From: Bacteroidota bacterium
Lineage (GTDB): Bacteria > Bacteroidota > Bacteroidia > NS11-12g > UBA955
Length of the DNA stretch: 64,000 nt
Reading direction: 5' to 3'
NCBI GenBank assembly: GCA_030833525.1
Contig: JAURGZ010000001.1
Span: 29,977 to 93,976, forward strand
The notes under the pieces: model-generated
Databases searched by the model: none
What the model saw: the letters and a program-made list of their open reading frames with translations, nothing else
Told to the model about the DNA's origin: nothing
Translations under genes and position numbers: made by a program
Part shown: one piece after another, positions 51,207 to 64,000 of the stretch
How the letters are laid out: every line of letters begins with the position of its first letter
Numbering within the stretch: position 1 is the stretch's first letter

Positions 51207-54014
51207 GTGAATAAGGAATTCATACGAATCAAGAATGCCCGGGAACACAACCTGAAAGGCATTGATGCAGATATTGAACTCGGTTCGTTCACGGTAGTGA
51301 CCGGTGTTTCAGGCTCCGGGAAATCCTCTTTGGTTTTTGATACACTCTTTGCAGAAGGTCAACGCCGTTATGTGGAATCCTTGAGTGCTTATGCCCGACA
51401 ATTTTTGGGCCGAATGAAAAAACCTCAGGTAGATTCCATCGAGGGTCTGTGCCCTGCAATTGCCATTGAGCAAAAAGTAAATTCTCGCAACCCAAGAAGC
51501 ACCGTAGCTACTTCAACGGAAATTTACGATTATTTAAAATTGCTGTTCAGCCGAGTGGGAAAAACGATTTCGCCGATTTCGGGAAGACAGGTCAAACAAG
51601 ATTCTCCCCAAGATGCAGTATCCTATGCCCAAGCTCATTTTGACGGTAAAAGAGTATGGGTAGGTGCTGATTTGGCGACAGGAAAGTACGGTGCCTCAGA
51701 ATGGAGTTTGATGCAGCAAAAAGGCTTCAACAGGGTTGCCTTCGGTGAGCAAGATCATGCCTTGGCTGATTTGCTGGAAACTCAACAGGTTTTTGAGGGT
51801 TCTCCTTGCTTGATTGTTGACCGCATTCGATTGGATGCTTCTGATGCTGAAAACACCAGTCGTTTATTTGATGCGGTTGAAACGGCATTTTGGGAGGGGC
51901 AAGGGAGCTGTGTAATCATTGAAATAGAGTCCCATACGCGAATCGAATTCAACAACCGATTTGAACTCGATGGCATGAGTTTCGAAGTGCCGACTCAAGA
52001 TTTCCTCTCTTTCAACAATCCGTACGGAGCATGCCGAACCTGTGAGGGTTTCGGTTCTGTATTGGGAATTGATGAAGAACTGGTCATCCCCGATGCTTCA
52101 TTGAGCATTCACGAAGGAGCCGTGGCACCCTGGAAAGGGGAAACATTGGGGGCCTGGAAAAGCGAATTCATTCGGGCGGCTTTGAAGTTGGATTTTCCTG
52201 TCCACCGACCCTATCGAGAACTGGATAAAGAACATCTCGATCTGCTCTGGAATGGAGCGAAAGGGGTCGATGGTATCCGTCAATTTTTTGCCTACCTGGA
52301 AGAAAAGTCATATAAGATTCAATACCGGGTATTGGCTGCTCGATACCGCGGTAAAACGACCTGTCATGACTGCCATGGTACTCGACTGCGCAAAGAGGCA
52401 AGTTGGGTGAAATTGCACAATATTCAGCCGGGTTTGAATGCCCCTGAATGGATGAATCTTGCCGACTTGCTGTTGATGCAAATTGATCAAGCCCATTTGT
52501 ATTTCAAACAAGCTCAATTGTCTGATGTTGATACCCATGTGGCTCAGCGCATTTGGACTGAAATCTCCACCCGGTTGGAGTTTCTTAAAAATGTAGGGTT
52601 GGGTTATCTCACCTTGAATCGTTTGAGCAATTCCTTGAGCGGGGGAGAAAGCCAACGCATCAATTTGGCCACCTCATTGGGTTCCAATTTGACCGGGTCC
52701 TTGTACGTGCTCGATGAGCCCTCCATCGGCCTACACAGCCGAGATACCGAACGATTGGTGTCGGTTTTGAAAGCCTTGCAAGAAGAAGGCAATACCGTGG
52801 TGGTAGTGGAGCACGATGAGGATGTAATGGGCAACGCCGATGCCATCTTGGATATTGGGCGGCTCGCAGGATCCCTAGGTGGGGAATTGGTCTTCAAAGG
52901 AACCTTGGATCAAATCAAAAAGTCAAAAGAAAGCCTTACTGGACAGTATTTGGGAGGTTCTGAACAAATTGCTGTTCCCGCTCAGCGCAGGAAATCAGTG
53001 AATTCCATTGAATTGCTTGGGGCTAGAGCCAATAATTTGAAAGATGTCGATGTGCAAGTCCCCTTAGAGGCATTAACGGTAGTCACAGGTGTTTCAGGTA
53101 GCGGTAAAACCAGTTTGATCAAAGGTGTTTTGTATCCCGCCATTTCTAGGCATTTGGGTCAGTTTACGGGCACCAAGCAAGGGAAATTCAAGGCTCTTCA
53201 AGGCGATTTGAATTTGGTACATGCCATTGAATTGGTGGACCAAAACCCAATTGGTAAAAGCAGCCGTTCCAATCCCGTGACCTATGTAAAAGCTTTCGAC
53301 GAAATACGTGAACTCTTTGCCTCACAACCCTTGTCGCATTTTCAAGGATTCAAACCTTCTCATTTCTCATTCAACGTTGACGGCGGTCGTTGCGACACCT
53401 GCAGTGGGGAAGGTGAGAGTGTCATTGAAATGCAGTTCATGGCCGACATCAAACTGCCTTGTGAAGCCTGCCAAGGAAAACGGTACAAAAAAGAAGTGCT
53501 CGAGGTCGAATTCAGAGGTAAGAATATCCATCAGGTATTGGAGTTGACGGTCGAAGAAGCCTTGGAGTTTTTTGCCGATCAAAAATCCATTCAAGAGCGA
53601 CTTAAGCCCTTGTCTGACGTAGGGTTGGGTTATGTGAAGTTGGGACAAGGAAGCAACACCTTGAGCGGGGGAGAGGCGCAACGAGTGAAGTTGGCTTTTT
53701 ACCTGAGCAAAGCCAGCCCGCACAAGGACGGCGGTACCTTGTTCATTTTCGATGAACCCACCACTGGACTGCATTTCCACGACATTAAAAAACTGCTGGC
53801 TTCGTTTCAAGCCTTGATCAAGAAAGGGCACACCGTGCTTTGCATTGAGCATAACCTGGATGTGGCTAAATGCGCCGATTGGCTCATTGATTTGGGTCCA
53901 GAAGCGGGTGAGAATGGCGGCGAATTGATCTACCAAGGCACACCCGAAGGTTTGTTGGCGGTTGAAAACAGCGTAACGGCTCCCTATTTGCGATCCAAAC
54001 TGATTTTAAGCTGA
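51207..54014 (+). CDS. uvrA: Excinuclease ABC subunit A
   Basis: 935 residues from the GTG at 51207; the track's start lies inside the DUF4249 gene, and an earlier GTG at 51201 is possible. MNKEFIRIKNAREHNLKGI matches the family N-terminus. The two ABC modules have Walker A GVSGSGKSSLVFDT and GVSGSGKTSLIKGV, signatures LSGGESQRINLA and LSGGEAQRVKLA, Walker B/DEP VLDEPSIGLHSRD and IFDEPTTGLHFHD. Zinc-knuckle cysteines are in CRTCEGFG, CHDCHGTRL, CDTCSGEGES and CEACQGKRY. It finds bulky DNA lesions and loads UvrB. Normal length; close behind a TonB/DUF4249 pair, so it may be transcribed with it. Confidence 0.97.
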   Translation: MNKEFIRIKNAREHNLKGIDADIELGSFTVVTGVSGSGKSSLVFDTLFAEGQRRYVESLSAYARQFLGRMKKPQVDSIEGLCPAIAIEQKVNSRNPRSTVATSTEIYDYLKLLFSRVGKTISPISGRQVKQDSPQDAVSYAQAHFDGKRVWVGADLATGKYGASEWSLMQQKGFNRVAFGEQDHALADLLETQQVFEGSPCLIVDRIRLDASDAENTSRLFDAVETAFWEGQGSCVIIEIESHTRIEFNNRFELDGMSFEVPTQDFLSFNNPYGACRTCEGFGSVLGIDEELVIPDASLSIHEGAVAPWKGETLGAWKSEFIRAALKLDFPVHRPYRELDKEHLDLLWNGAKGVDGIRQFFAYLEEKSYKIQYRVLAARYRGKTTCHDCHGTRLRKEASWVKLHNIQPGLNAPEWMNLADLLLMQIDQAHLYFKQAQLSDVDTHVAQRIWTEISTRLEFLKNVGLGYLTLNRLSNSLSGGESQRINLATSLGSNLTGSLYVLDEPSIGLHSRDTERLVSVLKALQEEGNTVVVVEHDEDVMGNADAILDIGRLAGSLGGELVFKGTLDQIKKSKESLTGQYLGGSEQIAVPAQRRKSVNSIELLGARANNLKDVDVQVPLEALTVVTGVSGSGKTSLIKGVLYPAISRHLGQFTGTKQGKFKALQGDLNLVHAIELVDQNPIGKSSRSNPVTYVKAFDEIRELFASQPLSHFQGFKPSHFSFNVDGGRCDTCSGEGESVIEMQFMADIKLPCEACQGKRYKKEVLEVEFRGKNIHQVLELTVEEALEFFADQKSIQERLKPLSDVGLGYVKLGQGSNTLSGGEAQRVKLAFYLSKASPHKDGGTLFIFDEPTTGLHFHDIKKLLASFQALIKKGHTVLCIEHNLDVAKCADWLIDLGPEAGENGGELIYQGTPEGLLAVENSVTAPYLRSKLILS

Positions 54015-54145
54015 GTTTTACCCAGAAGCTTAGTGCATCTCGGTAAATTTCATTCATCACCAAGCCCAACCCAGAACCCAGTGCTTCCTTGGTCTTAAGA
54101 TTTGAGCCAATGGTCTAAAGCGCAGCAAAATCGGGACCGATGCGT

Positions 54146-54153
54146 TACCTTTG
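54146..54153 (+). promoter_or_regulatory. -7 box of the M16 peptidase
   Basis: TACCTTTG, exact TAnnTTTG, 13 bases before the ATG at 54167. Confidence 0.58.
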
Positions 54154-54166
54154 TACTTCCTGCATT

Positions 54167-57082
54167 ATGAAGAAAATAGCAATTCTGTTAGGCTTGTTGT
54201 GCGGCAGCACAATGGATGTTTTTTCCCAAGCTACTTTGGTTGAAAAAGTAGAAGCCCAGCCTGGTTCTTTGGTGGTACCTTATGAAATGTACACCTTGCC
54301 CAATGGCCTTACCCTGATCGTTAGCGAAGATCACAGCGATCCCGTTGCTCACATCAACGTAACCTATCACGTAGGTTCGGCTCGCGAGATTCCCGGCAAA
54401 TCAGGATTTGCTCACTTTTTTGAGCACATGTTGTTTCAAGGTTCTCAGCACGTAGCCGATGAAGAACATTTTAAAATCATCAAGGAATTCGGAGGTGATG
54501 TGAACGGCAATACCACCCGTGACAGAACCGTTTACATTGAAACCTTCCCCAGCAACTTTACCGAAACCGCTTTGTGGATGGAAGCCGATCGCATGGGCTG
54601 TTTCTTGGAGGCATACACCAACGAGAAATTTGAAATCCAACGCAGTACGGTTAAAAACGAAAAAGACCAGCGTTACAACGTGCCTTACGGCTTCTTAATG
54701 GAGGTGAAAGATCAAGAATTGTATCCTTCTGACCATCCCTACAGCTGGTCTACCATTGGTTTCGTGGACGATTTGGATCGAGCCGATAGCAACGATTTGC
54801 GCAATTTCTTCTTGCGCTGGTACGGGCCCAATAACGCCTGTGTAATCGTTTCAGGCGATGTCATTGCCGCAGACGTCGTGAAGTGGACCGAGAAATACTT
54901 CGGCAGCATTCAACGCGGTCCTGAGGTACGTAAACAGCGCGTGCGCCCCGTTGTTTTGAAAGAAAACAAGGTGGCCAGCTATGCCGATGCCAACGCCAAT
55001 TTGCCTTTGATCTATACGACGTTCGTAGGTTCTCCTGTCATGAGTCAAGATGAGGCAGCCTTAGATATGTTGTCTTATTTGTGGGGCAATACCCGAAATT
55101 CTCCCCTCTACCAAAAATTTGTAGACAAGGAATGGGCCATTCAAGTAGGGGCCAACAACAACCCCCTGAGTGCCATCAACCACGAGTTGGCCGGTGAATT
55201 TTCGTTCATCGTAGTGGGCTATCCCTGGAGCGACATCAACAATTTGCGCTCCATGTTGGCTCAGGCCATCGACTCCTTTGAGTATGTGAATTTCAGTGAC
55301 GAAGATTTGGAGCGCGCCAAAATCAATTTCTTGAGCAACCTATCCAGTGGCTTGGAAGGAGCTTCAACCAAAGCCAATTACTTGAGCATGTTCTGGTACC
55401 TCGATGCCCGTGGCGCCGATGGCAAATTGACCAATTTGGAGGCTGAAGCTGAGCGCATCAAAAGCGTAACCCGCGAAGACATCATGCGCGTGTATCACCA
55501 GTACATCAAAACCAAGAAGTCTTCTACCGTGGTGATCGAGCCTGTTCGTTCCAACGGGGAAGAGGAAAAGCCCAAATACCAAAGCTTCAATCCGAATGCT
55601 GAGTACCGCAATCCCGTAGCGGAAGCCGAATACAAAGGTTTGCAATACCGCCCTGTACAAGATGATTTTGACCGCAGCGTGCGACCCACTCCTTCGGCGG
55701 TGAAGGAAGTCAGCGTGCCCCAAGTGATGAAGAAGGAATTGAAAAACGGTTTGGAGGTTTGGACCTCTCCCTTTGACGAGACCCCTCGCGTGTTTGTTCG
55801 TTTGAACATTGAAGGCGGTGCCTTGCTCGAAGACGGCAAAACCATTCCTGTCGGCACTGCTGACATGCTTTCAGTGGCCCTTCAGAACGGAACGGCCAAA
55901 CGCACTCCCGCTGAGCTGGAGCAAGAACTGGAGCGTTTGGGTGCTAGCATCAACGTAGGTTCCAGTGCTACCTCTATGTACGTGACTTTGGGTTGCGAAA
56001 AGCAGAACTTGCAGGCCGCAGCTGCCTTGATGCACGAGATGATGTTCGAGCCTCGTTGGGATTCTGACGAATACAGCAAGGAGAAAAAGCGCATGATGGA
56101 AAGTGCAAACTCAGATTTATTGAACCGTGGAACCGGCGCTTCCAACGCCTGGTCGCGTTTGACCCAAGGTGACAATGCCATGGGTACCTATGTGGGAGCC
56201 GCTCAATACGAAAAGGTCGATCTGGACGATTGCAAGAACTATTGGAGCAAAAACTGGACGCCCGCAAACAGCAAACTGGTTGTGGTTGGCGCAGTGACCC
56301 AAGATGAGGTGATGCAGTATTTCTCGTTCTTGAACGACTGGAAAGGCAAGGCCATTGAGATTCCTGTGCCCCAAAACAATTACGATTTTCAAACCTCCCA
56401 GATTTTTGGTGTCGAATACGTAGATGCCAAGCAGTCTGATATCTACATTGGCTTCAAAACCATGCCTTACGACGCCACCGGTGATTTCTACCGGGCAACG
56501 GTCATGAACTTTGCCTTGGCAGGTAATTTCAACAGCCGTTTGAACTTGAAAATTCGCGAGGAGAAAGCGTGGACGTATGGCATTCGCGGCGGATTCTCAG
56601 CCGGATACAAAAGCACCCCTGGTACCTATGTGATTTCAGCGGGTGTAAAAGCTGAGGCTACCGACAGTGCCATCTTGGAAATCTTGGATGTGTTGGAGCG
56701 CTACAAAACAGAGGGCATTACCGATGAGGAGTTTGCTTTCACCAAATCGGCCTTGATTGCTTCAGAAGCCTTGGATTACGAATCCTTGTTCCAAAAGGCT
56801 GGCTTCATTCTGTCTATGGCTAACCGCGAATTACCCGAAGATTACACCGCTCAGCAATTGGCCATTTTGCAAAACATGACCAAAGAAGAACTGAATGCCA
56901 TGGCCCGTGAATACTTGAATACCGATGAGTTGATCGTCGTTGTAGCCGGTGATATGCTTCGTTTGGAGAGCCGTTTGAATGCCCTTGGATTTGGAACGGT
57001 TCAGCGTCTGAACAAAGATGGCAGCGGGAAAGTCAAGATGTTGAAGGCGGGAACCACCGGTCACAAGAAGAATTACAATTGA
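54167..57082 (+). CDS. Two-domain M16 metallopeptidase
   Basis: 971 residues from the ATG at 54167, which yields the signal peptide MKKIAILLGLLCGSTMDVFSQ; the track's start adds residues before it. The N-terminal half has the inverted zinc motif H83-F-F-E-H87 in FAHFFEHMLFQGS. The C-terminal half repeats the M16 fold (GTADMLSVALQNGTAKRTP ... LKIREEKAWTYGIRGGF) with no HxxEH, as in the PqqL-like proteins where the second half only shapes the chamber. Located in the periplasm; probably cleaves peptides or small proteins. Own promoter and terminator. Confidence 0.9.
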   Translation: MKKIAILLGLLCGSTMDVFSQATLVEKVEAQPGSLVVPYEMYTLPNGLTLIVSEDHSDPVAHINVTYHVGSAREIPGKSGFAHFFEHMLFQGSQHVADEEHFKIIKEFGGDVNGNTTRDRTVYIETFPSNFTETALWMEADRMGCFLEAYTNEKFEIQRSTVKNEKDQRYNVPYGFLMEVKDQELYPSDHPYSWSTIGFVDDLDRADSNDLRNFFLRWYGPNNACVIVSGDVIAADVVKWTEKYFGSIQRGPEVRKQRVRPVVLKENKVASYADANANLPLIYTTFVGSPVMSQDEAALDMLSYLWGNTRNSPLYQKFVDKEWAIQVGANNNPLSAINHELAGEFSFIVVGYPWSDINNLRSMLAQAIDSFEYVNFSDEDLERAKINFLSNLSSGLEGASTKANYLSMFWYLDARGADGKLTNLEAEAERIKSVTREDIMRVYHQYIKTKKSSTVVIEPVRSNGEEEKPKYQSFNPNAEYRNPVAEAEYKGLQYRPVQDDFDRSVRPTPSAVKEVSVPQVMKKELKNGLEVWTSPFDETPRVFVRLNIEGGALLEDGKTIPVGTADMLSVALQNGTAKRTPAELEQELERLGASINVGSSATSMYVTLGCEKQNLQAAAALMHEMMFEPRWDSDEYSKEKKRMMESANSDLLNRGTGASNAWSRLTQGDNAMGTYVGAAQYEKVDLDDCKNYWSKNWTPANSKLVVVGAVTQDEVMQYFSFLNDWKGKAIEIPVPQNNYDFQTSQIFGVEYVDAKQSDIYIGFKTMPYDATGDFYRATVMNFALAGNFNSRLNLKIREEKAWTYGIRGGFSAGYKSTPGTYVISAGVKAEATDSAILEILDVLERYKTEGITDEEFAFTKSALIASEALDYESLFQKAGFILSMANRELPEDYTAQQLAILQNMTKEELNAMAREYLNTDELIVVVAGDMLRLESRLNALGFGTVQRLNKDGSGKVKMLKAGTTGHKKNYN

Positions 57083-57113
57083 GTTTTAAGGGACTCAAAA
57101 CGATAAAATGAGG

Positions 57114-57140
57114 AGAGGGGCTAAGGGCCCCTCTTTTTTT
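57114..57140 (+). terminator. Terminator of the M16 peptidase gene
   Basis: 8-bp stem AGAGGGGC / GCCCCTCT with loop TAAGG, then a run of T. Confidence 0.88.
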
Positions 57141-57198
57141 GCCTCAGCGCCCATAAAAAGGGCTTAAATGTATACAAATTGTGGGCAAACGCTGCTCT

Positions 57199-57220
57199 AC
57201 GCGCGCGGATACGCGCGCGG
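57199..57220 (+). repeat. Direct repeat of alternating CG upstream of gyrA
   Basis: ACGCGCGCGG twice, separated by AT (57199-57208 and 57211-57220), 33 bases before the gyrA ATG. Alternating CG of this length is the sequence class that most easily forms Z-DNA under negative supercoiling. The surrounding stretch has no ORF. A weak -7-like TACATTGA follows. Confidence 0.7.
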
Positions 57221-57252
57221 GATTGGTTAAATTGCTACATTGATTCATTGGA

Positions 57253-59844
57253 ATGGAAGAGAATAACAACAACAAAGAGATCGAAGAGAAAATCATCCCG
57301 ATAAACATCGAAGATGAGATGAAGGCGGCCTACATCGATTATGCGATGTCGGTTATCGTGTCTCGAGCATTGCCCGATGTACGCGACGGTTTGAAGCCCG
57401 TTCACAGACGCGTACTATACGGTATGGTTGAATTGGGCTTAGCGGCCAATCGTCCCTATAAAAAATCAGCGCGTATAGTAGGAGAGGTGTTGGGTAAATA
57501 TCACCCCCACGGTGATAGCAGCGTATACGATACCATGGTTCGTATGGCTCAAGATTGGAGTCTTCGTTACCCCTTTGTTGACGGTCAGGGAAACTTCGGT
57601 TCCATTGATGGTGATCCTCCTGCAGCTATGCGTTACACAGAGGCTCGCTTGAGAAAGATCGCCGAAGAAATGATGGTCGATATCGACAAGGATACGGTTG
57701 ATTTTCGCCCCAACTTTGACGAAAGCTTGAAGGAACCTTCTGTTCTTCCTGCTAAGATTCCCAGTTTGCTGGTGAATGGCGCTGCCGGTATCGCCGTAGG
57801 CATGGCTACGAACATGGCTCCTCATAACTTGTCAGAAGTCTGCGACGGTATCGTTTCCTACATCGAAAACAATGACATTTCCATTGAAGAGTTGATGGAG
57901 CATGTCAAAGGCCCTGATTTCCCTACAGGGGGTATCATCTATGGCGTAGAAGGCATTCGTTCAGCATTTGAAACCGGCCGTGGCCGCGTGGTAATGCGAG
58001 GAAAAGCCGAGATTGAAATCTCCAAAACAGGCAAAGAGATGATTGTGGTTACCGAGGTTCCCTACCAGGTGACTCCTTCGCAAATCATCATCAAAACCGT
58101 TGATTTGATCAATGAAAAAGTGATTGACGGTATATCGGCTGTTCGCGATGAAAGCGGCCGCCAAGGTATGCGCGTAGTGTTTGATCTCAAACGCGATGCC
58201 ATTCCCAACATTGTGCTGAATCAGCTGTACAAATTCACTCCGTTGCAAAGCAGTTTCTCTGTAAACAACATTGCTTTGGTTGGGGGAAGGCCCATGATGT
58301 TGAATCTGAAAGATTTGATTCGCCACTTTGTCGATCACCGCCATGAAATTGTGCAGCGCAGAACCCAATATTTGCTAGCAGAAGCACGCAAGCGCATTCA
58401 CATATTAGAGGGTTTGCTGATTGCACTCGACAACCTGGATGCGGTTATTGCTTTGATCAGAGCCTCTAAGACACCCGATGAAGCGCGCGACGGTTTGATG
58501 TCTCAATTTGGGCTGAGTGAAATTCAGTCTAAAGCCATTTTGGACATGCGTTTGCAGCGTTTGACAGGCCTTGAACGCGATAAAATTCGCGCTGAGCACG
58601 CCGAAGTATTGAAAGAAATCCAATACCTCGAAAGCATCTTGGGTTCAGAGACTTTGCGCATGCAAATCATCAAAGACGAAACCCTTGAGGTGAAAGAGAA
58701 GTATGGAGACAAGCGCCGCACCGATATCGAATTCAATGCTGAGGAAATCAACATTGAAGATTTGATTCCCAATGAAGAAGTGGTGGTTACCATTTCGCAC
58801 ATGGGCTACATCAAACGCACACCTTTGGCTGAATACAAAGAGCAAAATCGCGGAGGTAAAGGATTGCGTGGTGTGAAACATCGCGACGATGACTTTGTTG
58901 AACATTTGTTCATCGCCAGCACCCATAACTATTTGTTGTTGTTTACTGAACAAGGACGTTGTTTCTGGCTCAAGGTCTATGAAATACCTGAAGGGGCTAA
59001 AGCTACCAAGGGCAGACCGATTCAGAATTTGATCAACATTCCCTCTGAAGATAAAATCAAAGCGTACATCAATGTACTGAATCTCAAAGACGAAGATTAC
59101 ATCAACAACACGCACATCATCATGGTAACCAAGCGCGGTACCGTTAAAAAGACTTCGCTAGAGGCTTATTCACGTCCCCGTTCCAATGGAATTAACGCCA
59201 TTACCGTAAGGGAAGGAGATGAGCTCTTGCAAGCTTGTTTGACCGATGGAAATTGCGAGGTGCTCATTGCCAAGCGAAAAGGCAAAGCCATTCGATTCCC
59301 TGAGTCTAAGGTTCGACCCATGGGCAGAACGGCAGCAGGTGTGCGCGGCGTAACTTTAGAAGATGACAACGACGAGGTAATCGGCATGGTTTGCGTCAAT
59401 CCGGCGAACGAAAGTTCAACCATTCTGGTGGTGTCAGAGCACGGTTATGGAAAACGCACCAACCTGGATGACTACCGAATCACCGGCCGCGGTGGAAAAG
59501 GAGTGAAGACCATTTCCATCACCGAGAAAACCGGCGACTTGGTCGGCATTCTCAACGTCACCGATGAAGATGGCTTGATGATCATTTGCCGCAGCGGCAT
59601 GACCATTCGCACGGCAGTTGAAAATCTGCGTGTAATGGGTCGTGCGGCACAGGGTGTACGTTTGATTAAGATCAAAGATGGCGACAGCATTGCCGGCGTC
59701 ACGCAAACTCCCAAGAGTGAAGATGAAGATGAAAACGGGGAAGAAGGAATGGCCGTTGATGGGGTAGAAAATACCCAATCTGACGGTACAGAATTCCAAG
59801 CGCCCGATTCTGGCACGGATTTGGAAAGTAACGATGAAAACTAA
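57253..59844 (+). CDS. gyrA: DNA gyrase subunit A
   Basis: 863 residues. The catalytic tyrosine is Tyr128 in [10 protein letters not shown]. The quinolone-resistance region reads [11 protein letters not shown] with Ser89 and Asp93, the wild-type sensitive state. [14 protein letters not shown] matches the GyrA box and sets it apart from ParC; the six-blade C-terminal domain follows. The C-terminus is an acidic tail ([11 protein letters not shown] and onwards). Gyrase adds negative supercoils. The next gene starts 5 bases after this stop, with the alternative start inside gyrA, so it is probably co-transcribed. Confidence 0.97.
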
Positions 59845-59848
59845 TGCT

Positions 59849-61354
59849 ATGAAAAAACTAATCTGGATAGCGGTTCTGAGCCTAGGATTCGGAGCTCAAC
59901 TTAAAGCGCAAGAGCGCTCTGTAAACAGCGCGGAATATTCACTCGCGAGCGGTTCAGCCGAAGATTTGATCTTAGCCAAGGAAGAGATTGACAAAGCGGC
60001 CGTTAACGAAAAGACTTTCAACAACGCTCGCATGTTCTTAATCAAAGCCATGGTTTACAGCCGTTTGTTCGAAACCAAGGGCAACGAAATGATAGAGCCT
60101 TTGAGCGCCAAATCTGGATTCATTTCAGGAGAGAGCATGTTGGCGTTCTTTGACAATCCGGCGAAGAAGCGTTACGACGACCAAGAAATGGCCGAAATCG
60201 AAGTCAATCGCAGTTTTGCAGCGGCGTTCAACGAATCTGCTGTATTGTATAACGATGAAAACTACGACGGTCTTACCGAATATTATGAATTGCTATTGAA
60301 GTTGTACGACCACTTGGATACTGCCATGGTCGGGAACCTGGAGCGTTCTAAAATCACCAAAAAAACCATGCAAGAAACTTTGGCTCAAGTAGCCTCCTTG
60401 CATTCGTCTTCAGCCAAAAGCATGATGGTGCTTCAAGGTTTGGTAGACAATGGGGTGGTTACTCCCGTGGTTATCGAAACCTTAAGCCGTGTATATCAGA
60501 AAAATGGAGATACCGCTTCTGCTGAAAAAGCCATTCGTCAAGCCTTGGAAGCCACGAATTATCAGAACTCCATTTTCCAAATCTTGGTCAACTTGTATGT
60601 TTCCCAGGGTCGCGAAGATGATTTGATGGCTGACGTCAGTGCCCAAATTGATCGCAGCAATCAAGCTGGCAATCCATCGGCTAACATGCATTATACAAGA
60701 GGTTATTTGCTTCAAGAAAACGAGCAATACGATGAAGCCATCGCCGATTACCGCAAAGCAGTAGAATTGGATCCCTTGCACTACGATGCAAACTTCAACT
60801 TGGGTGTGGCCTTGATGAAATACGAGAGCCGCAAATTGAACGATTTGCCCAGTGCCGATCGCGAACCCAAGCGCAAGGCTTTGTATGGTGAAGCTATTGA
60901 ATATCTTGAAGTTGCTCGCGAAAACTACGATTACAGCGTCAGCGATCAAATCAACTTGTGCCGTGCATTGATGCAGTGTTACCAAGAAACGGACGACAAC
61001 GCCAAGGTTTCTTTTTACTTGGGTCAGAGCCGTTTGTTGCAAGACGTAGAAATCTACAACGGGTCAGGAATTGTCTATCGAATTTTGACCGACAACAAGA
61101 AAATGAGCATTTCGTACTACAACAAATTGGGCAAAACCAGCTCGGTTGATCTTCCAAGCCCCAACAGCGGTTGGACCGAAACAGCCGACGGTTGGGAGAA
61201 ACCCTTCGATTACGAAGATCGTTCAGGCGAATTGATGTTGACCGCACGTTTGATTGGAGAGGGCAGCCTTACCGTTCAAATCATTGTCGACGGAAAAGTA
61301 GTTTCTGAAGCTGAAGCAAACGGGATCAAAGCCGCCGCATATACCCGAATCTAA
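59849..61354 (+). CDS. Secreted TPR protein downstream of gyrA
   Basis: 501 residues from the ATG at 59849; the track's ATG at 59834 is inside gyrA and adds five residues before the signal peptide MKKLIWIAVLSLGFGAQLKAQ. TPR repeats begin near residue 215 (VYQKNGDTASAEKAIRQALEA, YTRGYLLQENEQYDEAIADYRKAVELDPLHYDANFNLGVAL). The last 80 residues are a beta-rich domain (LTDNKKMSISYYNKLGKTSSVDL ... SLTVQIIVDGKVVSEAEANG). Periplasmic; role unknown. Co-transcription with gyrA by spacing. Confidence 0.85.
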   Translation: MKKLIWIAVLSLGFGAQLKAQERSVNSAEYSLASGSAEDLILAKEEIDKAAVNEKTFNNARMFLIKAMVYSRLFETKGNEMIEPLSAKSGFISGESMLAFFDNPAKKRYDDQEMAEIEVNRSFAAAFNESAVLYNDENYDGLTEYYELLLKLYDHLDTAMVGNLERSKITKKTMQETLAQVASLHSSSAKSMMVLQGLVDNGVVTPVVIETLSRVYQKNGDTASAEKAIRQALEATNYQNSIFQILVNLYVSQGREDDLMADVSAQIDRSNQAGNPSANMHYTRGYLLQENEQYDEAIADYRKAVELDPLHYDANFNLGVALMKYESRKLNDLPSADREPKRKALYGEAIEYLEVARENYDYSVSDQINLCRALMQCYQETDDNAKVSFYLGQSRLLQDVEIYNGSGIVYRILTDNKKMSISYYNKLGKTSSVDLPSPNSGWTETADGWEKPFDYEDRSGELMLTARLIGEGSLTVQIIVDGKVVSEAEANGIKAAAYTRI

Positions 61355-61368
61355 CTCCATCCAAATAG

Positions 61369-61395
61369 AAAGACCCGGGGCAGTCCGGGTTTTTC
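61369..61395 (+). terminator. Terminator of the gyrA-TPR transcript
   Basis: Stem ACCCGG / CCGGGT with loop GGCAGT, flanked by A and T runs that extend it, ending in TTTTTC. Confidence 0.82.
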
Positions 61396-61613
61396 TTCGA
61401 CATTTATATTTAACATAATGTAAATTATGAAACAAAAGAATGCCTCACAATGAATGCCAAAAACTGAATGCCGAAAATCGAACCAGGTCTGCGTCTATTC
61501 AACTGGTTGACAACCCCGTTGACAAGTCCCTGCATTTTTCCCTGCTCTGGGCTACTAACTCTGATAACTCACTTGATTTTCGCTCGATGATCGTCGATGC
61601 ATGCATTGGCAAT

Positions 61614-61644
61614 GAAAAACCCGGGATATTGCCAAATCCCGGGT
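61614..61644 (-). terminator. Minus-strand terminator of the T9SS remnant
   Basis: On the minus strand ACCCGGGAT, 8-base loop, ATCCCGGGT then TTTTC. It is placed as expected for the remnant that ends at 61682, 37 bases upstream on this strand. Confidence 0.8.
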
Positions 61645-61681
61645 CTAAGGTCAATTCGGTAGAATATTTTAAATTCTCAGG

Positions 61682-62095
61682 TCACTGCAATACCCAAATG
61701 TCATGGGTAACGACCTGGCCAGCCGCATTCAACTGCTGAACGGAAAATGTTCCTTTGCTGTCTATTTCCAAGCAGTATTCGCTGCCTCCGTTTTGCGGGG
61801 TCAATTCTATTTGCTCAACCAACCTACCCGTAGATATTTCCCGTATAAGCAACCGAACGGCTTGGCTATTTAACATAATAATAGAGTGCCCGCTGCTCGG
61901 ATTGGGTTTGATCATGCCCGATTGAAAATGCGTATCTGAGTATTTCTGTTCGCTTGCAAAGATTCAAGGTACAAATTTTATTCTAATCGCTTTTCAAACG
62001 GCGTGAATAGCTTGCAAAAGGGCTTTGTGAGGGTAATTTTGGACTGACGATAAATCAATGCTTGATAATAAGAAGGCCGCAATGATTCTGTTCAT
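61682..62095 (-). pseudogene. Remnant of a T9SS-secreted protein gene (signal peptide and C-terminal domain only)
   Basis: The last 77 codons (61682-61915) encode a type A T9SS sorting domain starting at KPNPSSGHSII and ending DIWVLQ. In the same frame, 60 codons upstream, an ATG at 62095 begins MNRIIAAFLLSSIDLSSVQN, a signal-peptide-like sequence. Between them the frame has two TGA stops (61994-61996 and about 61960) and only about 45 codons, too few for a passenger domain. A secreted protein that lost its middle and then its frame is the simplest reading. Alternative: the start is chance and only the C-terminal domain survives. A terminator follows directly. No signal peptide is attached to the intact 77-codon ORF, so it is unlikely to be secreted. 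Confidence 0.62.
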
Positions 62096-62111
62096 CGTTG
62101 AATTACGAATA

Positions 62112-63269
62112 TTAATCAACCCAAGATTTCCAATAACTTTGATCTTCCGTATCTAAGGCGGCTTGGGTGATCTGCAAGGGATGGAATGGGTCAATCATCA
62201 CGGCCAATTCACCGGTTTCTTTTTTGCCAATGCTTTTTTCGACCGTTCCCGGATGAGGTCCGTGCGGGATGCCTTTGGGATGCAAAGAAATCATGCCCTT
62301 CTCCACGTGTTTGCGGCTCATGAAATCACCATCTACGTAATAGAGAATTTCATCGCTGTCGATATTGGAATGGTTGTATGGGGCGGGTATGGCTTGGGGA
62401 TGATAATCGTACAATCGTGGGCAGAACGAGCAAATGACGTAGTTGCGGCCCTCGAAAGTTTGGTGTACCGGAGGTGGTTGGTGAACTCGACCCGTGATGG
62501 GTTCAAAGTTGTGGATGCTAAAGGCGTAGGGGTATAAATAACCGTCCCAACCAATGGCGTCAAAGGGATGAGTAGCATAGGTGTAGGGCCATATCAAACC
62601 TTGTTGCTTGATGAGCACCTTGAACTCCCCTACCTCGTCATGGGTTTCCAATTGTTCTGGCAATCGAATGTCCCGTTCGCAGTATGGCGAATGTTCCAGC
62701 AATTGACCAAAACTATTCTGGTAGCGTTTGGGTGGGTAAACGGGAGACGGAGATTCTATTACCATCAACCGATTGCCCCTGCCATTGAAATGGATTTGGT
62801 AAATCGTTCCTCGGGGAATGACCAAGTAGTCGCCATAATCAAATGGAATTTGCCCGTAAATGGTCTTCAATACACCGCTTCCTTCGTGTACGAACAACAC
62901 CTCATCGGCATCTGAATTCTTGAAGAAATAATCGGTCATGCTTTGAGTGGGGGCAGCCACTCCAATGTGCACATCGTTATTGAACAATAAAACTTTTCGA
63001 CTCTTCAAGTAATCGGCTTCAGGAGCCGTTTTGAAGGTTAAAAAGCTGCGGTGTTTCATGTTCTTTTCAACCGCGGCCTTCGGGCTTACATCGTAGGGTT
63101 CTTCCACATACTTGACCAAGGTTGGGGGGTGGCAATGATAGATCAAGGAGTACAAGCTGCTGAACCCTTCTGTGCTTGCGAGTTCTTCAGAATAGAGTTC
63201 GCCATTGGGCTTGCGAAATTGCACGTGGCGTTTGGCTGGAATCTGCCCTGAGCGGGTGTAAAATGGCAT
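62112..63269 (-). CDS. hmgA: Homogentisate 1,2-dioxygenase
   Basis: 385 residues from the ATG at 63269. The track extends it 203 codons upstream, but that part is antisense to the gene at 63327 and unlike the family; MPFYTRSGQIPAKRHVQFRK is the normal N-terminus. The iron ligands are in APYNHSNIDSDEILYY (His and Glu) and GIPHGPHPG (His). IGWDGYLYPYAFSIHNFEPITGR is conserved. It opens the ring of homogentisate in tyrosine and phenylalanine breakdown, yielding maleylacetoacetate. No other gene of that pathway lies in the window. This is the shorter, bacterial type of the enzyme. Confidence 0.95.
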   Translation of the reverse strand: MPFYTRSGQIPAKRHVQFRKPNGELYSEELASTEGFSSLYSLIYHCHPPTLVKYVEEPYDVSPKAAVEKNMKHRSFLTFKTAPEADYLKSRKVLLFNNDVHIGVAAPTQSMTDYFFKNSDADEVLFVHEGSGVLKTIYGQIPFDYGDYLVIPRGTIYQIHFNGRGNRLMVIESPSPVYPPKRYQNSFGQLLEHSPYCERDIRLPEQLETHDEVGEFKVLIKQQGLIWPYTYATHPFDAIGWDGYLYPYAFSIHNFEPITGRVHQPPPVHQTFEGRNYVICSFCPRLYDYHPQAIPAPYNHSNIDSDEILYYVDGDFMSRKHVEKGMISLHPKGIPHGPHPGTVEKSIGKKETGELAVMIDPFHPLQITQAALDTEDQSYWKSWVD

Positions 63270-63291
63270 ATTGAACGTGAGTTTGCACGAA

Positions 63292-63312
63292 TTTAACCCA
63301 AAATAGGGTAAA
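63292..63312. promoter_or_regulatory. Inverted repeat between hmgA and a divergent lipoprotein gene
   Basis: TTTAACCC, 6 bases, GGGTAAA: inverted repeat with one extra base in the left arm, midway between the divergent start codons at 63269 and 63327. Its position fits an operator, but no regulator is nearby. Confidence 0.35.
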
Positions 63313-63326
63313 TTGCTTGGAGCATT

Positions 63327-64000
63327 ATGTGCAGATTCGGACGCTATACACGAATAATTTTTGCAGTTCATGCGAGTTTTATTCTGTTTATGGGTTCTTG
63401 CACGAAATCCTATGATGTACGGGTAGATGGCAATCGCCCGCCGAATTACAAAAGCATTCCCACCCTTAAGATTGACAATTATGTCAACCGGGTATTCATC
63501 GATTTTTTGGGAAGAGAAGCCACCGAATTGGAGCGCAATGAATGGGTGAATTTGCTCAAAAAGAATGGGCTGGCCTACAAAACCCGGGATTCCTTGATTC
63601 AAATTTTGCAGTGGGACAGCGCATTTAGACCCGGTGATTCTTCGTATCGGCATGCATATAGTCAACGCCTGTATGATGTTTCCAAAGCCCGCTTTTTGGA
63701 AGGAGCATCGGACCCAGATATCAAACAATTTGTTGGGAATTTGGAATTTGCTATAAAAATTGCTCGCCTTGAAGGAGATTCGATTCGGGTATATGCGGCC
63801 CAAGATGCTAAAGCGAAGTTCAACAATGTCTTGATCAGTCGACAGCGGTATCGTTTGCATGAAATTGGATATTCCCAAATGGTCGCTTGCATGATCAACA
63901 ATCCCATTTACGACGGAATCAACATGAATTCATTCAACTACGTCATCGCCTCTTTTGACGATGTGTTGAGGCGAAATCCGACGCAAGATGAATTTACAAG
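63327..64000 (+). CDS. Unidentified lipoprotein, 3' end outside the window
   Basis: The frame from the ATG at 63327 is open to the window end, so it is missing from the ORF track; 224 residues are visible. MCRFGRYTRIIFAVHASFILFMGSC ends in a lipobox. The next part, NYVNRVFIDFLGREATELER, faintly recalls DUF1549-type openings (a Val/Asp-Arg-Leu-Phe-x-Asp-x-Leu-Gly-Arg pattern), and a similar phrase recurs at VLRRNPTQDEFT near the edge, suggesting two helical repeats. I do not recognise the family. Divergent from hmgA across the inverted repeat. No evidence links it to tyrosine breakdown. Confidence 0.75.
   Translation, partial: MCRFGRYTRIIFAVHASFILFMGSCTKSYDVRVDGNRPPNYKSIPTLKIDNYVNRVFIDFLGREATELERNEWVNLLKKNGLAYKTRDSLIQILQWDSAFRPGDSSYRHAYSQRLYDVSKARFLEGASDPDIKQFVGNLEFAIKIARLEGDSIRVYAAQDAKAKFNNVLISRQRYRLHEIGYSQMVACMINNPIYDGINMNSFNYVIASFDDVLRRNPTQDEFT

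Follow-up and report, generated by a model that had tools for sequence, protein, structure and literature searches.

A T9SS cargo gene remnant beside a putative dif site, very probably left by an internal deletion of ~3.0 kb

In a window of 64,000 nucleotides of Bacteroidota DNA (the whole stretch that was analysed), the minus-strand feature between a TPR protein gene and an hmgA-like gene is very probably what remains of a large T9SS cargo gene that lost ~3.0 kb of its interior and was thereby inactivated. Its ancestral form was transcribed leftward from just past the hmgA-like gene to a terminator facing the TPR gene across a dif site, and the deletion fused approximately codon 54 to a point shortly before the sorting domain. 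Two frameshifts and a stop in the 5' stub either arose after this event or were present before it. The frame of the 3' stub is unbroken, presumably because the stub is short and because the deletion would be recent relative to the divergence of the genus. T9SS substrates require a signal peptide (PMC10202324); hence, no exportable product is expected from a sorting-domain ORF lacking one, and the ORF is presumably without function.

The sequence elements reported in the initial annotation were all found in place. The sorting domain is contained in a 77-codon ORF (61682-61915 with its stop, minus strand; MIKPNPSSG...DIWVLQ). A start at 62095, MNRIIAAFLLSS, lies 180 nt, i.e., 60 codons, upstream of this ORF and shares its frame; two TGA codons (61996-61994 and 61966-61964, minus strand) interrupt the stretch joining this MNRII start to the sorting-domain frame. 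The intrinsic terminator of the cargo gene (61617..61646, minus strand) is intact and consists of an 11-bp stem followed by UUUUU, with an energy of -18.6 kcal/mol (z = -3.14). A matching hairpin was found at the same position in both relatives (L040 and L041). The general promoter and terminator scan did not list this terminator, probably since stem, loop or tail were beyond the limits of the scan.

The sorting-domain stretch was searched in 38 related genomes, which gave two strong matches, both in the genus of the window. These matches (58% and 55% identity over 85 residues) are the C-terminal ends of frames 404 and 1139 aa in length, and the 77-codon ORF itself matches the C-termini of the long protein in the two congeners with E = 1.6e-27 and 3.7e-29. 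Thus, the ORF is no chance frame. The 3' remnant, which comprises the type A T9SS C-terminal sorting domain and a few residues upstream (61685..61939, minus strand), retains an unbroken frame of 85 codons with 55-58% identity and zero net indels compared to the intact cargo C-termini of both congeners, G001 and G002. In G001, the intact cargo of 1138 aa is encoded at L040:9013-12429(-) on contig JAQCBH010000012.1 and consists of a signal peptide (MKNLLLGALALTIGAVEAQ), a sortilin/VPS10-like BNR-type propeller, PKD/Ig-like domains and a type A T9SS tail. The nearest NCBIfam family to this VPS10-like cargo is the F510_1955 glycosylhydrolase, which scores below its cut-off. As in the window, the neighbours are the TPR gene and the hmgA-like gene. 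In G002, 404 C-terminal aa adjoin the TPR gene and the N-terminal part is located on another contig; the pieces are 98-100% identical to the G001 cargo. The check proposed in the initial annotation, to look between the gyrA-TPR unit and hmgA for a whole secreted protein whose ends match, thus came out positive in G001 and G002, and the proposed loss of the passenger is borne out by the intact cargo in both congeners and by DNA alignment. In blastn, window positions 53019-61926 correspond to L040 414-9257 and window positions 61981-64000 to L040 12313-14335. From these two collinear blocks, it follows that ~3.0 kb of the cargo gene are missing in the window, namely codons ~55 to ~1053. The deletion junction was placed approximately at 61920..61945 using the blastn blocks and a frameshift-aware alignment. 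No other copy of the passenger was found in the window's own genome, in which the best match is a paralogue with 31% identity. The direct repeats of the intact gene include no long pair located at the two deletion ends; exact micro-homology is unreadable at ~65% identity.

The 5' remnant (~61935..62095, minus strand) comprises the start codon, the signal-peptide region and the codons up to ~54. A frameshift-aware alignment of the intact residues 1-75 with window positions 62111-61916 gave a score of 53, compared to a maximum of 38 in 200 shuffles, and spans residue 3 to ~54, reaching ~61935. From the hmgA-like stop to the start codon, the distance is 16 nt in the window and 17 nt in G001, so that the two starts are orthologous. 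Three lesions were identified, one frameshift near 62017, another near 61997 and a TAA stop at 61980-61978, a count which depends on the scoring of the alignment. Both ends do stand in one frame with two TGA codons between them, as had been noted at first; however, this shared frame is accidental, since comparison with the intact gene reveals two frameshifts and a separate TAA in the 5' remnant. The TGA codons are read in a frame that has ceased to match the protein beyond the first of these frameshifts.

For the identity of the sorting domain, neither TIGR04183 nor Por_Secre_tail matched the window ORF, even at E ≤ 10. A hit of TIGR04183 to 61682-61915 had been predicted, and its absence named as a refutation; the absence is uninformative, because the domain of the intact G001 orthologue itself reaches just 15.2 bits (curated cut-off 23 bits). 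Identification by NCBIfam and Pfam HMMs was hence replaced by orthology and profile comparison. Cargo orthologues of sister genera exceed the TIGR04183 cut-off, with 43.9 bits in G074, 37.2 in G075 and 23.1 in G020. Using hhalign, the window domain was compared to 14 recognised CTDs of its own genome and matched with 92.3% probability (E 5.7e-7, 66 columns). AlphaFold predicted seven strands arranged as an Ig-like sandwich (pLDDT 78.7). Of the PDB chains retrieved by Foldseek, the second and fourth in rank belong to the T9SS translocon-substrate structures 8gl8 and 8gl6 (TM 0.66-0.68); their E-values are only 0.015-0.026, and further Ig-like folds rank alongside them. In CTDs, motif E normally carries conserved lysines close to the C-terminus (PMC10202324). 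No lysine is present in the last 13 residues (AGQVVTHDIWVLQ) of the window domain, nor at this place in the intact G001 protein; since the genus lacks these terminal lysines, the intact tag is itself divergent. Judged by orthology, the profile-profile match, the sister-genus CTDs above the cut-off and the predicted fold, the remnant is classed as a type A T9SS sorting domain. The genome encodes a T9SS, with SprA at 2217 bits and ~41 places above the TIGR04183 cut-off. Another short frame of 151 aa in the same genome (L024, G000:C71:9817-10059) ends in a good TIGR04183 domain and may represent either a small cargo or a further remnant. The idea that the locus serves as donor or recipient of export tags was rejected, as no other place in the genome shares the tag (best other E 0.35).

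The conserved neighbours of the cargo gene are the TPR protein gene at its 3' side (59834..61354, plus strand) and the homogentisate-dioxygenase-like (HgmA_N) gene at its 5' side (62112..63269), which lies on the minus strand like the cargo. The latter is only distantly related to hmgA, as it scores 56.6 bits against an equivalog cut-off of 510.75 but is above the Pfam cut-off of HgmA_N; it is possibly a different dioxygenase of that fold. The order gyrA, TPR gene, and then cargo and hmgA-like gene on the opposite strand was found in genomes of five genera (g1, g4, g5, g6 and g8). Hence, the common ancestor carried the gene, and its absence from the window is a derived state. In one of these, sister genus g6, the TPR and hmgA-like genes are adjacent without the cargo in five genomes (G007, G061, G062, G063 and G068; L080-L084). 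No cargo orthologue was found elsewhere in the five genomes. In their TPR-hmgA intervals (~150-280 bp as cut out), blastn joins the flanks almost directly and no piece of the sorting domain was recognised. In a concatenated tree, a genome with the cargo gene is the partner of G007 (100% support), of G062 (73%) and of G068 (100%), and G061 and G063 form one clade. Therefore, by parsimony and assuming no regain, g6 has undergone at least four clean losses of the cargo, in addition to the loss in the window. The five cargo-less genomes have small assemblies of 1.8-2.1 Mb. In G010 (L090), another frame of 1225 aa adjoins the TPR gene and the cargo orthologue follows ~8 kb further on, so that this locus is rearranged.

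The interval that separates the TPR gene from the cargo remnant contains a 28-bp palindromic, intergenic dif-like XerCD site, ATTTAACATAATGTAAATTATGAAACAA, at 61408..61435 (plus strand), to which published dif criteria were applied (PMC3091885, PMC3025954). In much of the family, the site occupies this position 3' of the TPR gene. The sequence TTTAACATAATGTAAATTATG, at 61409-61429 in the window, or a near copy was found in the TPR-cargo or TPR-hmgA intervals of the same five genera. One copy per genome is present in 38 of 70 family genomes; the window's own genome has one copy, and 0 are expected in shuffles of the window. The 28-bp site matches the E. coli dif sequence at 20 of 28 positions, the best place in the window. 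In G075, the GC skew switches sign at the orthologous site (+0.044 in the 100 kb to the left, -0.068 to the right). No clear switch was seen at the site in G001 and in the window, and the terminus claim thus rests on G075. With the site as a putative dif, the locus is likely the dif/terminus region. It is conceivable, but rather unlikely, that the dif-adjacent stretch is a deletion hot spot in which XerCD/FtsK cutting or late decatenation would repeatedly remove the surface-protein gene. If true, this would account for no fewer than five losses that arose independently within a single family, with dif and both neighbour genes persisting.

The 77-codon ORF might still be a gene whose product, a sorting domain on its own, has taken on another role such as that of a cytoplasmic or decoy peptide, which we consider very unlikely. 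The frame is unbroken, and dN/dS of the sorting domain over the whole path between window and G001 is 0.24 (dN 0.28, dS 1.19), compared to 0.29 between the two intact genes, values which are based on few changes. A T-to-M difference at the first codon provides an ATG in place of a Thr codon, and the terminator is intact. Moreover, the lesions are confined to the 5' stub, with three in ~162 nt and zero in the 255 nt of the sorting domain, a distribution with a chance of ~0.06 under equal decay. However, dN/dS mostly covers the time when the gene was whole: constraint acted on the sorting domain along most of the path, and the ratio is silent on the period after the deletion. In a neutral simulation over distances of 0.03-0.06, the frame stays open with a probability of ~0.06-0.55, a value that varies with the indel rate. 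The intact frame beside a damaged 5' stub and the dN/dS are mild hints of retention, or simply reflect a recent deletion. Without a signal peptide, the product cannot reach the T9SS, and the short form was found as a conserved unit in none of the genomes searched.

An artefact of assembly or binning, by which a gene whole in the organism was collapsed by the assembler, is highly improbable. The assembly is a draft of 93 contigs, and the G002 copy is likewise split by contig ends, but a clean mis-join would not produce the two frameshifts and the TAA of the 5' stub. Furthermore, both neighbour genes have open frames and the passenger is on no other contig. That the whole gene is instead the derived form, with a passenger inserted between start and tag in the ancestor of G001 and G002, would agree with its presence in just two congeners. 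This reading is refuted by synteny and its probability is practically negligible, as full-length orthologues with 41-51% identity over most of the protein occupy the corresponding position in four further genera, which makes presence ancestral. Inactivation by internal deletion is therefore the reading retained here.

Compared to known systems, the window domain shares with type A T9SS CTDs (TIGR04183 / PF18962 Por_Secre_tail) the PNPSSG start, the G-x-L-V middle motif and the KG-x-F motif, as well as the C-terminal position on a signal-peptide protein, the occurrence in a T9SS genome and the predicted seven-stranded sandwich. It differs from them in being below the HMM thresholds and in the final 13 residues without lysine, as in the intact congener. 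In a functional T9SS cargo gene, a single open frame runs through the Sec signal peptide, the passenger and the CTD; in the window, this frame is disrupted by the deletion, frameshifts and stops. The intact orthologues of G001, G002 and of other genera are cargo proteins of the VPS10/sortilin-like BNR-type propeller kind with PKD domains and T9SS tail; in the window, in contrast, the propeller and PKD/Ig domains are gone and the two ends alone are left. The putative dif resembles known XerCD sites in being 28 bp, palindromic, intergenic, single-copy and, in G075, at a GC-skew switch, whereas the skew of G001 has no clear switch at the site. A short orphan sorting-domain ORF can thus be a remnant instead of a gene, and comparison with a congener suffices to tell. 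The loss of a large surface protein of the T9SS is also well polarised here, as the window stands between relatives with the intact gene and relatives in which it is cleanly absent, and the dif-adjacent position with parallel losses leads to a small testable question on terminus deletions. As in other bacterial internal-deletion pseudogenes, and as for a pseudogene of a VPS10/PKD cargo, the remnant is collinear at both ends with an intact orthologue at the locus, its interior is missing, and frameshifts and a stop disable what is left. It is an ordinary pseudogene of a known kind of T9SS cargo. Only its location beside dif and the losses that occurred in parallel in a sister genus set it apart from the usual case, and this repeated loss is only mildly notable.
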